DNA of 64,000 nt from Brachyhypopomus gauderio (lineage: Eukaryota; Chordata; Actinopteri; Gymnotiformes; Hypopomidae), in contig NW_027506878.1 in NCBI RefSeq assembly GCF_052324685.1, positions 754,704 through 818,703 on the forward strand, given 5' to 3'. A program made the position numbers and the translations under genes. This document shows, piece after piece, positions 26,744 through 43,759 of this stretch. The stretch's first letter is position 1, and every line of letters begins with the position of its first letter. The notes below the pieces were generated by a model that saw only the letters and a list, made by a program, of their open reading frames with translations, was not told the DNA's origin and ran no database searches.

Positions 26744-26796
<53 letters not shown>

Positions 26797-32000: not shown

Positions 32001-34203
32001 AGCCCACGCACCAAAGAAACAAGGTATAAAGGCAGGTACCAGGAAAAATCAATTTATGATCCTCCCACCTCCTCTCTCTCAATCTGTCTGTCTTTGCATA
32101 TCGTGTCTGATGGCTGATTGGCTGGCTCGTGGCGGTGTGTGAAGGAAAGATCTTCTGTGATTGGCTGTCATGTTTTATCCAAAAGGATAAGACCACCCTC
32201 CAAATATGATGCTAAATCAGAAAGAGAGGGTAGCCATCTTGAGGAAACCTGGTGCTAGCGATGAATGTCAGCTGTACTTAAGTGTTCCTTTCCGATGTAA
32301 CTGGACGAAACAATGACATCTCTGTAGCATTAAAGATGATGCTCAAGTGTATTTCCATTGGATTGTGGCATGTGGTCTGAGAAGCAGTATTTGATGTTCA
32401 ATGTACGTTTTTCGAATGAACACTTGAATAAAAAACGCTTGGGGGGGAAAAATGTCAGACGAAAAGCGGTGAATGGACAATGTTTAGTGTACATTGTGCA
32501 TCATGTTGAGCAGCTGGTATACTACACGTACAGTGTACCGAAACATCTCCGCGTTCAAGACTAACAATGACCACTGACTCCAGTATACGCTCACAGCATA
32601 CTGGGGAGCTGCAATGGTTCATCCAAACACACCAAGAGAACGTTTTGGTGCGCAACAATGTTGGATCAACTACCAAATTATACAAATAAATTAACCGCTG
32701 TATCTTAGTATCTCGTACAGTTAACCCATGGCTAACAAAGTAGTCCTGGCCCAAGTAGAAATGCACACACTCAAACTACACTAGGTATCAATGAATTATC
32801 TTCTGTATGCACCCCCACCTCCTCACCCCCTAAGTGCTGCAGAGCTATGCCTACAACAGGCAGCCACCCTTTCAAACTCCTGGACAAACATGGGATTAAC
32901 ATAGCCTAGAACAGGTGGTTCAGATTAAGTAGTCAGATTTTAAACCTATCTGAGGCATAAGCACGTCAAGTCAAAAACTGATCAAGGCCTACTGTCCAAG
33001 TGTGGTCTTTCCTTTATAAACACAACAAAGACTAAACAACTACACAGGTACAAGAGTTCTGAACTGACGATGCTTTGGGAATAGGACAGCAGCAATAGCA
33101 ATAACTAGACTTCACAGTGTTCAACACTCTATTGAAGTGCTATTGAGGCTTTTAAAAATCATACGCATGATCCAGTACAATAGAATAAACACTGCATTGC
33201 AAAATGCCAATACCAAATAAAAACCGGGACCCACTTAACCATAACCAAGAATACTAAATGTATAAACCAAATTGGCCGCTTTTCATTTGGTATTAGCATT
33301 TAGCCTATAAAAAAAAATTATAATTGAAAACTCAAGGTCCACCATGTTGGCTGTGTGGGTGCATGCGGCGTGTGTGACGGTGGCCAGGGGAGAGTGCTCT
33401 GCTGCTTCACGGGTGAGCAGGGTGAGTTCGCCACATGCTTGTGTGTACAGCACGCACCGGGCTGCATGCAGCTCGTTGGTGAAAAGACCCGAGCGGGACA
33501 AAAACAGATGTGCGCGTGTGCATTGTGTGTGTGTACCGTGATGACCTCACCGCCCGCGAGTGTCTCGTGGAAAGAGCCATCACGCGCTCACTCTTAAACA
33601 ACTGTCTGTGTGTACGTGTTTGTGTGTGTGTTGGAATGCGTGTGGTTTGTGCTGATTTGAGGAAAAGGGTTCAAGACTGAAGCCAATTCAGAAAGCGACA
33701 CCTCTGTGGAATGTTCTGTGTAATCGTGGTTAACACCAGTATTCCACAGGGGTCTCACCATGGGAAGCGTGACCACATAGGTAGTCCCACAACCAATGAA
33801 GAGAAACACCAGCGCGTGTGCGCAGAAGTGCAACTTCACGCGCGGGTGCAGGTTACCTTGGCCACTCAGACTCGGGTTGGTGTAATCCCAGGTGTCCTGG
33901 TCGTTCTTAAACACGTTGAGACGGGTTGGCTGCAAAAGATATTAAAAATGTGTTACGATTTTTTTTCCCTTCTGCAAGCTGGTACTTGCCCCCATTTAAG
34001 CTTATGCTGTTTAATCATGGGCCAAAGCAAACATATCAGCACCGTGCAAATTGAAGGGGTGTGAAGCTAAGAGTCTGGTCACTGACCTTAGCGTACTCAA
34101 TTTTGAGGGTGCAGCAGCCAGAGTAAATGTCTGCCCCGTTCAGAGAGGCTTTTGCTCTCTGAGCACTCTGGACCGAGTCAAACGTGAGCAGGAGTTAAGG
34201 AAA

Positions 34204-34243
<40 letters not shown>

Positions 34244-36402
34244 TGCTAACGCTAGCATACACAAAGAAGAAAACAAAGATGAGACTAAATGGCCACCTAG
34301 GCATCAGAGCCTTGAAATTAGTGCAGACCGCCAGTTTGATCCCTTCACAGTCTACTACCAAGAAACAACTGATACTGGTTAATACAGATCACATAAATGT
34401 CATAGGAAGCAGGTTACGCCGCTGGGGAAGGATATTCAACCATTGCCTGGACACCATTCTTCCTGAAGATCACAATCCTCTGTACAGGGCCGCAGTTATT
34501 GCAGATGGTGTACAGCACATCCTGTGGACAGAGAACGACACATTTTCACTGTAGCAGCGTCAAGGTGCCAGAAGATATTACCATGGCAACAGCACCGATG
34601 CGGAGCATAAGGCAATAGTGGAGAATAATCACTGGAGAGAGGAGAACACTGTTGACACCGATGAGAATTCACGTCACAAGCACGCATACGAGTTAAAACA
34701 GGGGTAAAGTTGCATTACTGTAGTAATGGGGTAGATGGGGTTCATGATGGTGAAGAGCAGGATGTTGTTGACGCTCGGAGCATCACCAGAGTCCCCAGGT
34801 CGGGAGATCTTCTGGCTGGTCGAGTAGTTGATGTAGCACGGGCGGCCGGCGATGTACACCTGGTTATCGTTAGCGTACGTCACGGCATTACACGAGCCAC
34901 TCATGTCCTCGTACTCCACCAGAGCCTGCCGCTTGTTCGGCATCAGAACCACGTAGCTACAATCACACAAGGACAATGGTAGCTGAATTATTGGCCAGAT
35001 TAACTGCTACTGATCACATGCAAAGACGAAATCAGAATCAGAATACTTTATTAATCTCAGGGGGAAATTGCTTTTGTTACAGTGCCACCATTTGCGTATT
35101 ATATTAATAAAACACCTCTATAAAATATAAAAATATGTACAAATAATAAAGAACATCCTAATATTGAATTTAAAATAAAATGTAAAATAAGTAGGTATTG
35201 CACATATGTAATAAAATAAATAAAATAAAATTAACAATAAAATAAAAGTAAACTGATAAACAGATAATAAACAGTTATTATATAGAAAAGGGGGACTGAT
35301 CATGGTGTGCATGTGTAGAAGAAGAAGAAAAAAAAACCAAATCTATTACAGATATTAAGATACATTCCTTGGTCACAAAAATATCTTCGGATATCGTGAA
35401 TTTTCCAAAATTCAATGTTTCAAGTACTATCGAATGTTGCACAAAATTAAAAATAATTTAAAAAATAATACAATTTATAAAAAGCCTTGCAAAAACATTG
35501 GTTATTAGAAGAAACAACGAAAACTGTGCGATACCTGATTGTACCAAACTCACGCAGCGCCTCCACGATGTCGGACTCGGTAATGCCGTCGATCAGACCC
35601 CTCACATGTACCACCAGCGAAGGCAGCGGCTTATGGGGGTCATCGTAGCCCTCCTGAACACACACACACACGACGGCCCAAGTCCATGAGGAGAACATCT
35701 CAACAAGGTCAAAGATAAACGAGGGCTTCTGCATCAGTGTTTATCATGGAGTCAAACGGGACAACACAATCAAACCATTTTAATCAAGCCACACGGCGTA
35801 CAGTCCACGTTGCAAAAGCTTTCGGGTTTTTTTGTGTGTGTGTGTGTGTGTGTGTATATACATTCCTAGCCAGTTTGTCGAAATAGATCATAAAATGTTG
35901 CTGAAATCAGCAGAATAAGTGCAGTCACAGACAGCTGGTCGGTCACCGTGCGCGCCCGGCGCGGTTCATTCAGAACAAAAGCCCATGAATGAAAACCCCT
36001 CCCAGGCTAACGCTGCTAACGGCGGACGCTGAAGCCTCCGGTTCATATTTGACCATAATAACCACGGAGAAAAGAAAAGTAAAAAAAAACCCGCTTAGGT
36101 TTCCTGACAAGTGTTTGAAAAGAGATCATGATGTTTAAACGCAGAGCAGCTACAGCGACGGAGGCGGAGGAGAAAGCGAGATGTTTGACTAGCTTTGTGC
36201 TAGCAGGGCTTCGCCCATCGACCGCGCCGTTATAATTCACCGATAATTCTCACACCCTTTCAACGACACGACATCAAAATACACACGATCGGCAAATTTA
36301 AAAAAAGAAAATACGCACCGTGGCCATCCCGTCAGTGTCTGTTTTTTGTCTTTTAGTGGCTCGGCCTCCCTCGCTGTAATAACGACCCGTCGCGGCGGCC
36401 AT
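25713..36402 (-). CDS. hnrnpl: Heterogeneous nuclear ribonucleoprotein L
   Basis: Nuclear RNA-binding protein that reads CA-repeat and CA-rich RNA and controls splicing. Exons in transcript order: 36402-36319, 35653-35535, 34956-34719, 34521-34436, 34183-34087, 33929-33857, 28974-28939, 28610-28542, 27563-27307, 27204-27083, 26996-26795, 26656-26599, 26022-25927 and 25771-25713. The sum is 1596 nt, 531 residues in one frame. RRM1 is about 41-117 (LVVHVRGL, RQALVEYED), RRM2 about 138-215 (VQAMVEFDS, SLNGADIYSGCCTLKIEY), a Gly/Pro/Tyr linker (YGPPPPHYEGRRMGPPIGRG), RRM3 about 325-400 (VVMVYGLDPYK, GAAMVEMGD) and RRM4 about 440-525 (VLHFFNG, GLLEWETVNDA). It ends YTLKLCFSTAQNAN. The ATG at 36402 gives MAAATGRYYSEGG, like the mammalian N-terminus; an in-frame ATG also exists at 36489. 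The linker sequence is HNRNPL-type, not HNRNPLL. Confidence 0.96.
25858..29046. repeat. (AC)n tracts in 3' hnrnpl introns (UG in the transcript)
   Basis: AC runs at about 25858-25892, 26079-26101, 26561-26583, 26743-26794, 28911-28938 and 28998-29046. On the transcribed strand they read GT, so donors at 26794 and 28938 are AG|GTGTGTGT. Confidence 0.9.
28939..28974 (-). other. hnrnpl: 36-nt in-frame hnrnpl exon
   Basis: On the minus strand TTTGTGCAG precedes ATGCTGACTCAGATGG and CAGTTCCCAAG is followed by GTGTGTGT. The exon is 36 nt, phase 1 to phase 1, and would add DADSDGNWNSSQ between the SGQG and DPNANPNKRQR segments. I recall no matching peptide in the mammalian protein, so it may be fish-specific or alternatively used. 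It is included in the hnrnpl joining above; skipping it keeps the frame. Confidence 0.65.
33551..33605 (-). other. hnrnpl: Candidate hnrnpl poison exon between CA-rich tracts
   Basis: In the long intron after the 33857 exon, the minus strand shows CACACAGACAG, then a 51-nt segment (33601-33551; 55 nt with the alternative AG), then the good donor GGGCG|GTGAGG. Read from the upstream phase, either acceptor gives a stop codon within a few codons (TAA or TGA). On the transcript it is bracketed by CA-rich stretches at about 33606-33640 and 33502-33537. Mammalian HNRNPL is known to autoregulate through a poison exon in the equivalent long intron with CA clusters. Identity here is inferred from position, stops and CA tracts. 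Confidence 0.5.
34184..34435 (-). other. hnrnpl: U12-type AT-AC intron in hnrnpl RRM2
   Basis: The 252-nt minus-strand intron begins ATATCCTTCC and ends TTCCTTAACTCCTGCTCAC. The first matches the minor-spliceosome 5' site (ATATCCTTT) at nine of ten bases counting the following C. TTCCTTAAC is a consensus U12 branch site with the AC terminus about ten bases on. No GT-AG pair keeps the frame across this junction, while AT-AC joins GTTGA to GTTTGAC to give AMVEFDS, the expected RRM2 sequence. A (GT)n run on the transcript sits directly before the branch site. Confidence 0.9.
35032..35335. mobile_element. LINE 3'-tail remnant in hnrnpl intron 2
   Basis: AATCAGAATCAGAATACTTT followed by ATTAATCTCAGGGGGAAATTG is a recurring fish non-LTR retrotransposon tail. 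It is followed to about 35335 by low-complexity A/T-rich sequence. No coding part remains. Confidence 0.55.
35830..35862. repeat. (GT)n tract = CA repeat in hnrnpl pre-mRNA
   Basis: A (GT)n run in hnrnpl intron 1 that reads (AC)n on the transcript. It is the only long perfect CA repeat of the hnRNP L binding type in this gene; the others are UG. Confidence 0.8.
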
Positions 36403-42955: not shown

Positions 42956-43759
42956 TTTCTGGCTACTGACCACTAACCCTCAGATTAAAATGCTGGATAT
43001 CCCCTGTGGAAATAAAACCTGGCTGTTCAGTATGAACATACTGTCGGGTTATTTTCCAGTGCTGTACTGTTGAGCTTCTCTAATATGCTGCAGTGTCTGT
43101 TGTATAGCCTACATACTCATTCATGGGTTGTATGGTGACTCTGCTAAGGTTTTTCTTCACTCAGATAGTATAAACACGATTGTGCTGAGCTGGCTTCACC
43201 ATTCCATGCAGATCATAATACTGAGGTTATTGAGTGGTTATGCAGCTGACCTACCACACTCTGAAACAGCTGACCTACCACACTCTGGAACAGCGGGGGC
43301 TTTCAGTGGGAACTGAAAGAAAGGGCAAATCAGAGTAAAGGGGTAGAACAGAGGGGCAGTACAGAGGGGCAGGGCAGGTAGATTTGAGGACAGCCTGGTG
43401 GATAGAGTGGTGCCCCAGTCTGCTGATCATTGCCCTAATTCCTACTGCATGTCATCGGTTTGTGTGGTTTAAAAAAAATCTGCAACAGAACTGCATTTTA
43501 TACTAGAGGAGTGTATCTCTGGACTTACAGTATGGGAGAGATATAAATTGTGCTTTCTGGAGGAAACCCTTTAAATAATCTAGATATAACACTACCATTC
43601 TCCCCCAATGTTCCTGCTGCCAAAAAAAAGTTCTCAATTTGATTTCACTGTGATATTTATTTACAAGGCCCATAATGAGTTCAGATTACTAACTATATCC
43701 TTTATACCTTCAGGACTATTTACCTGGGCAACACTTACTCCTGGTTTGGGCAAATTGTT

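Follow-up and report, generated by a model that had tools for sequence, protein, structure and literature searches.

A predicted U12-type AT-AC intron in the second RNA recognition motif of hnrnpl in Brachyhypopomus gauderio

In a 64,000-nucleotide stretch of the Brachyhypopomus gauderio genome (contig NW_027506878.1, positions 754,704 to 818,703; hereafter the window), the minus strand carries an hnrnpl gene whose second RNA recognition motif (RRM2) is interrupted between the residues VQAMVE and FDSVQSA. How this junction is spliced is the question raised by the locus, and the original prediction answered it with an intron that begins with AT, ends with AC and is removed by the minor, U12-dependent spliceosome. 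The analysis presented here agrees with the coordinates, strand and motifs then assigned to positions 34184 to 34435, and indicates that this interval is almost certainly a genuine and old U12-dependent AT-AC intron in the RRM2 of a fish hnrnpl.

The junction, its motifs and the restored domain

The intron spans 252 nucleotides (34435-34184, minus strand) between exons 34521-34436 and 34183-34087, with the layout CAATGGTTGA/ATATCCTTCC...GGTTTCCTTAACTCCTGCTCAC/GTTTGACTCGG, and its excision splits one Glu codon as GA/G (phase 2). The joined flanks encode 60 amino acids, 59 of which are identical to HNRNPL RRM2 in PDB entry 7evr (E 1.4e-35), bearing out the claim that use of the AT-AC ends restores the domain. 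U12-type introns of the AT-AC subtype are characterized by the 5' splice site consensus ATATCCTTY and the branch site consensus TTCCTTRAY. The intron starts with ATATCCTTCC, with ATATCCTTC at 34435 matching the first consensus; TTCCTTAAC at 34202-34194 matches the second, and the intron closes with CTCCTGCTCAC and its terminal AC. The textbook signals on which the original prediction relied are both in place, and the most likely branch A (34195) lies 11 nucleotides from the intron end at 34184, inside the 11-13 nucleotide optimum given for U12-type introns in PMC3584512. As regards the polypyrimidine tract, which U12-type introns lack in distinct form, only TCCTGCTC separates the branch site from the AC, a GU repeat lies upstream, and the branch site itself is pyrimidine-rich.

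We compared these motifs with chance expectation in 100 dinucleotide shuffles of the window. Each strand of the window holds a single ATATCCTTY (34435 minus, 43695 plus), and the two occurrences of TTCCTTRAY (34202 and 2451) lie on the minus strand; over both strands, the shuffle means are 0.79 and 2.36, respectively. A loose set of 5' splice site, branch site and AC within 5 kb appeared in 5 of the 100 shuffles; the motif set alone is therefore only modestly unusual in 64 kb, and it is its exact placement that carries evidence. Our own arithmetic from the shuffle rates, which assumes even composition, puts the chance of the set falling at precisely the junction that the protein defines at about 1e-9 (0.79/128000 multiplied by some 10 allowed places at 2.36/128000). 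Because the motifs sit exactly at a junction that the protein fixes independently, chance is untenable as an explanation. The second ATATCCTTY, at 43695 on the plus strand, is isolated, with no TTCCTTRAY on the plus strand of the window, and is probably a chance occurrence.

The host gene lies on the contig labeled C34 in our analysis of this 796.5-Mb genome, and its assignment to the hnRNP L/LL family follows from the RRM2 identity reported above and from exon matches to the TIGR01649 profile along C34; no match there exceeds the whole-protein cut-off because the search runs exon by exon. We modeled the 5' part of the gene from an ATG at 36402 through six exons (36402-36319, 35653-35535, 34956-34719, 34521-34436, 34183-34087 and 33929-33857), with boundaries placed from homology and splice signals, and the translation contains no stop. 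The five introns of this segment comprise four of the GT-AG type and the AT-AC intron, and more hnrnpl exon matches extend down to about 25.7-25.9 kb.

Sister genes and minor-spliceosome RNAs

Exon-by-exon searches with the TIGR01649 (hnRNP-L/PTB family) profile, whose counts are lower bounds, identified two further hnRNP L-type genes in the genome, on C19 and on C12 (hnrnpll-like). An AT-AC intron with the same position, phase and type is present in 3 of 3 hnRNP L-type genes found. On C19 the intron (C19:9412327-9412467) has 141 nucleotides, reads ATATCCTTTA...GTCCTTGAC...CAC with the end segment TTGTCCTTGACTCCTCCCAC, and its removal yields 60 amino acids identical to those of the window's gene (60/60). 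The C12 intron has 1077 nucleotides and reads ATATCCTTAC...ATCCTTGAC...CAC, with start segment ATATCCTTACTGG and end segment TTATCCTTGACTCCGCCTCCCAC; among PDB entries its spliced product is nearest to HNRNPLL (55/60, versus 48/60 for HNRNPL). Both 5' splice sites, ATATCCTTT and ATATCCTTA, are close to ATATCCTTY. In blastn comparisons of the C34 and C19 genes, similarity extends into the intron by 8 nucleotides at its 5' end and by 18 at its 3' end, the latter reaching the second base of the branch site, and the interior of the intron does not align. The 3' extent is equal for C12, whose upstream RRM2 exon gave no blastn match at the threshold used.

Four PTB-type paralogs (C10, C12:6.89M, C16:0.43M and C130) share with hnrnpl the TIGR01649 family and the presence of an intron in RRM2, but in these genes the intron lies, by eye, about eleven codons further downstream. 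Neither [AG]TATCCTT nor TCCTTRAY was found in the four stretches fetched, and an intron position shared between hnrnpl and the PTB genes, which we considered, was likewise not found in them. Among the genes examined, which do not include a fifth PTB-like locus (C16:9.44M, lacking an RRM2 match in the table) or three weak matches (C18, C33 and C23), the predicted U12-type intron is confined to those of the hnRNP L branch. Since it is common to both gene types, the intron is most simply older than the split between hnRNP L and hnRNP LL, a split that probably dates from the early vertebrates or before.

Judged by its small nuclear RNA (snRNA) genes, the host possesses the minor spliceosome, with matches above the Rfam cut-offs for U12 (127.9 bits), U11 (112.9), U6atac (130.6) and U4atac (87.2). 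With the branch A bulged, the window's branch site forms 8 of 8 pairs with GUAAGGAA of U12. The AAGGG near the 5' end of U11 pairs with UCCUU through four Watson-Crick pairs and one G-U pair, and near its 5' end U6atac carries AAGGA, the exact complement of UCCUU. Two weak U6atac-like copies, L035 (G000:C41:873396-873533) and L036 (G000:C41:840571-840708), score 34.6 bits against a cut-off of 33; they have opposite orientations, are separated by about 33 kb, and are probably pseudogenes or a duplicated copy.

Several observations weigh against the U12-type interpretation. The complete pairing with U12 is not independent evidence, because it follows nearly automatically from the consensus, and the C19 and C12 branch sites, which deviate from TTCCTTRAY at their first base, pair with U12 (branch A bulged) by only six Watson-Crick pairs and one G-U pair of eight. 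At the 5' splice site, the C at +9 costs one U11 pair that is present in the C19 copy, and the best U6atac site for the 7-mer UAUCCUU, in the first part of U6atac that was searched, is at position 41 and not at the 5' AAGGA. Conservation of the intron position is conservation within a single genome, frame-keeping GT-AG pairs do exist at the junction, and the whole case is drawn from genomic sequence. Taken with these points, the 5' splice site, branch site, spacing, phase, restored protein, paralogs and snRNA genes still lend strong support to the assignment of a U12-type AT-AC intron. The features discussed are collected in Table 1.

Table 1. Predicted features in and around the AT-AC intron of hnrnpl (window coordinates)
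Feature	Positions	Strand	Basis or remark
U12-type AT-AC intron, 252 nt, phase 2	34184..34435	minus	junction, shuffle scan, paralogs
U12-type 5' splice site ATATCCTTCC	34426..34435	minus	motif and U11 pairing
U12 branch site TTCCTTAAC, branch A most likely 34195	34194..34202	minus	motif and U12 pairing
3' splice site, terminal AC	34184..34185	minus	sequence
Coding exon E4 of hnrnpl with the first RRM2 half (...VQAMV + GA of Glu)	34436..34521	minus	model; CCACAG precedes; joined flanks 59/60 identical to PDB 7evr
Coding exon E5 of hnrnpl with the second RRM2 half (G of Glu + FDSVQSAQ...EYAK), donor AAG/GTCAGT	34087..34183	minus	model
Candidate latent GT-AG intron (ATG/GTTGAA ... GTCCAG/AGT), in frame, deletes VEFDSVQ (7 aa)	34168..34440	minus	frame-keeping pair scans
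(GU)17 on the transcript, probably an incidental microsatellite	34205..34238	minus	array scan; ends 2-3 nt upstream of branch site

Alternative readings of the junction

The original prediction had argued that no GT-AG pair could join the two exons in frame. With donors taken from 10 nucleotides inside the upstream exon to 120 nucleotides inside the intron, and acceptors from 150 nucleotides before to 70 nucleotides after the 3' splice site, we found 28 frame-keeping, stop-free GT/GC-AG pairs (13 GT-AG and 15 GC-AG), two of which (one of each kind) leave the length of the protein unchanged. A scan of GT-AG pairs only, over a narrower range, covered 49 pairs, 10 of which are in frame without a stop. 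None of the 28 pairs recreates VQAMVE-FDSVQSA within the range scanned, and to this extent the argument holds; as an argument from missing pairs it was overstated.

One of these pairs, the candidate latent GT-AG intron of Table 1, raises the possibility of a twintron, in which removal of the U12-type intron would give the main product and the major spliceosome would also use the overlapping pair with donor 34440 and acceptor 34168, generating an in-frame isoform that lacks VEFDSVQ. The offsets of this pair (-5/+16) recur in all three paralogs, and the latent donors on C19 and C12 score 2.3 and 2.5 bits, above the weakest of the five modeled donors of the window's gene, which range from 1.6 to 8.4 bits. 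The window's own latent donor is poor (-1.6 bits), and we rejected the conservation of the pair as evidence, because the conserved Val-Glu and Val-Gln codons by themselves produce the sites. Human HNRPLL is a published U12/U2 twintron whose variants of 537 and 536 amino acids differ within an RRM (Janice et al. 2013, PMC3564746), a difference of one residue and not of seven, and a review (PMC8329584) describes the U12 intron of HNRNPLL as external and its U2 intron as internal, the opposite of the -5/+16 geometry. RRM2 is also unlikely to tolerate losing one of its core strands. On balance, use of a second, overlapping intron at this junction appears improbable.

A second alternative accepts the AT-AC ends as real and assigns a regulatory role to the (GU)17 run, which would make splicing of the intron conditional, for instance through TDP-43 or CELF hindering the binding of U12. 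TDP-43 is a binder of GU repeats, and the run ends 2-3 nucleotides from the branch site, which it nearly touches, much as the original prediction had stated. Against a functional interpretation, the window contains 63 GT/CA arrays of at least 9 units in 64 kb, and no such array stands beside the branch site in the sister introns on C19 or C12, the latter having GT repeats elsewhere. We therefore rejected any special meaning derived from its position alone; the run is probably incidental, and we consider regulation through it quite unlikely. Slightly less likely again is a scenario that joins both ideas, in which hnRNP L-type genes would keep an ancient twintron switch, with minor splicing yielding the full-length protein and the GT-AG pair yielding an isoform with a crippled RRM2 whenever minor activity drops, while (GU)17 tunes the balance in this species.

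Removal of the intron by the major spliceosome alone, with coincidental AT-AC motifs, would be allowed by the 28 stop-free frame-keeping pairs, including the two that preserve length, but it is scarcely credible given that none of them restores the residues common to HNRNPL and HNRNPLL and that the AT-AC motifs fall exactly at the junction in 3 of 3 paralogs.

Other repeats were observed in the window and within the gene. Between 44300 and 46735 on the plus strand, 25 GT/CA-type arrays of at least 9 units (24 TG or GT, 1 AC) are packed into about 2.4 kb, suggesting a minisatellite of TG-rich units. At 26746-26795 (minus strand), the 5' splice site of the exon that ends in TTTACCCAG at 26795 passes directly into a (GT)24 microsatellite, as CAG/GTGTGTGT..., and the sister exon on C19 appears to end GAG/GTTAGC, without the repeat. 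In the long intron downstream of the RRM2 exons, the transcript is dense in CA between 33456 and 33656 (minus strand). Since hnRNP L binds CA-rich RNA (PMC7547044), this stretch could be a self-binding site; blastn against the C19 stretch and a partial C12 stretch revealed no conserved element there, a search in which low-complexity masking could hide one.

Predicted processing, retention and comparison with known introns

For the U12-type AT-AC intron, the established U12 pathway suggests how processing would take place. U11-48K and U11 would bind ATATCCTT at the 5' splice site, and U12 would pair with TTCCTTAAC so as to bulge an A. U6atac takes the place of U11 at the 5' splice site of such introns, and would displace it here, and the cut at the AC would be selected by the short distance of 11 nucleotides past the branch A. 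Both intron ends are recognized together by the U11/U12 di-snRNP (small nuclear ribonucleoprotein), as described in PMC3584512.

If the intron is retained, translation reads EYPSPAA and then a stop, and full-length hnRNP L can therefore be soundly inferred to depend on the minor spliceosome. The retained sister introns also stop early (EYPLLFGCDI and EYPYWNSDC, each followed by a stop), and loss of minor splicing should thus cost the full-length protein in all three genes. In zrsr2-mutant zebrafish, retained minor introns are smaller (median 451 versus 1398 bp) and 444 of 662 minor introns are not retained, according to PMC9501576. Since smaller minor introns are the ones retained in these mutants and the hnrnpl intron is short at 252 nucleotides, its sensitivity to the loss of minor splicing is a fair prediction. 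The locus illustrates cleanly how the main product of a splicing regulator can be expected to rely on the minor spliceosome, and it holds a warning for gene prediction, since models restricted to GT-AG introns would mis-annotate the RRM2 of hnrnpl.

The class to which the intron belongs is well known and ordinary, given that the zebrafish study set contains 662 minor introns (PMC9501576) and that the AT-AC subtype makes up about 22% of minor introns in humans (PMC6717393), and what is known of minor introns is left unchanged by this one. In the portions of the literature searched, we found no paper in which HNRNPL itself is named as having a U12 intron; this intron may well be listed in U12DB, IAOD or MIDB. 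In the parts of PMC7244321 and PMC11304329 considered, hnRNP L figures as an antibody, a reference or a protein interaction, and in that of PMC11460701 HNRNPL is a binding protein in a figure legend; the main texts of PMC9501576, PMC12332006, PMC6717393 and PMC7367187 contain no words beginning with "hnrn".

With U12 splicing already published for HNRPLL in the same gene family, the hnrnpl intron is less surprising than the original prediction implied. The human HNRPLL twintron resembles it in comprising a U12-type intron whose splicing alters an RRM, and the two U12 introns likely share the same position. For each of the 18 twintrons that they list, the authors of PMC3564746 state that the ancestral intron belonged to the U12 type. 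The human gene differs in that a U2 alternative is used, while in fish hnrnpl the U2 pair is only predicted. Compared with vertebrate U12-type AT-AC introns in general, the hnrnpl intron shows the same ATATCCTT 5' splice site, the same TTCCTTRAY branch site, the same short distance from branch site to 3' splice site, the same AC end and the same solitary occurrence among GT-AG introns, with no essential difference, and the (GU)17 beside its branch site stands as an individual quirk of an otherwise ordinary member of the class.

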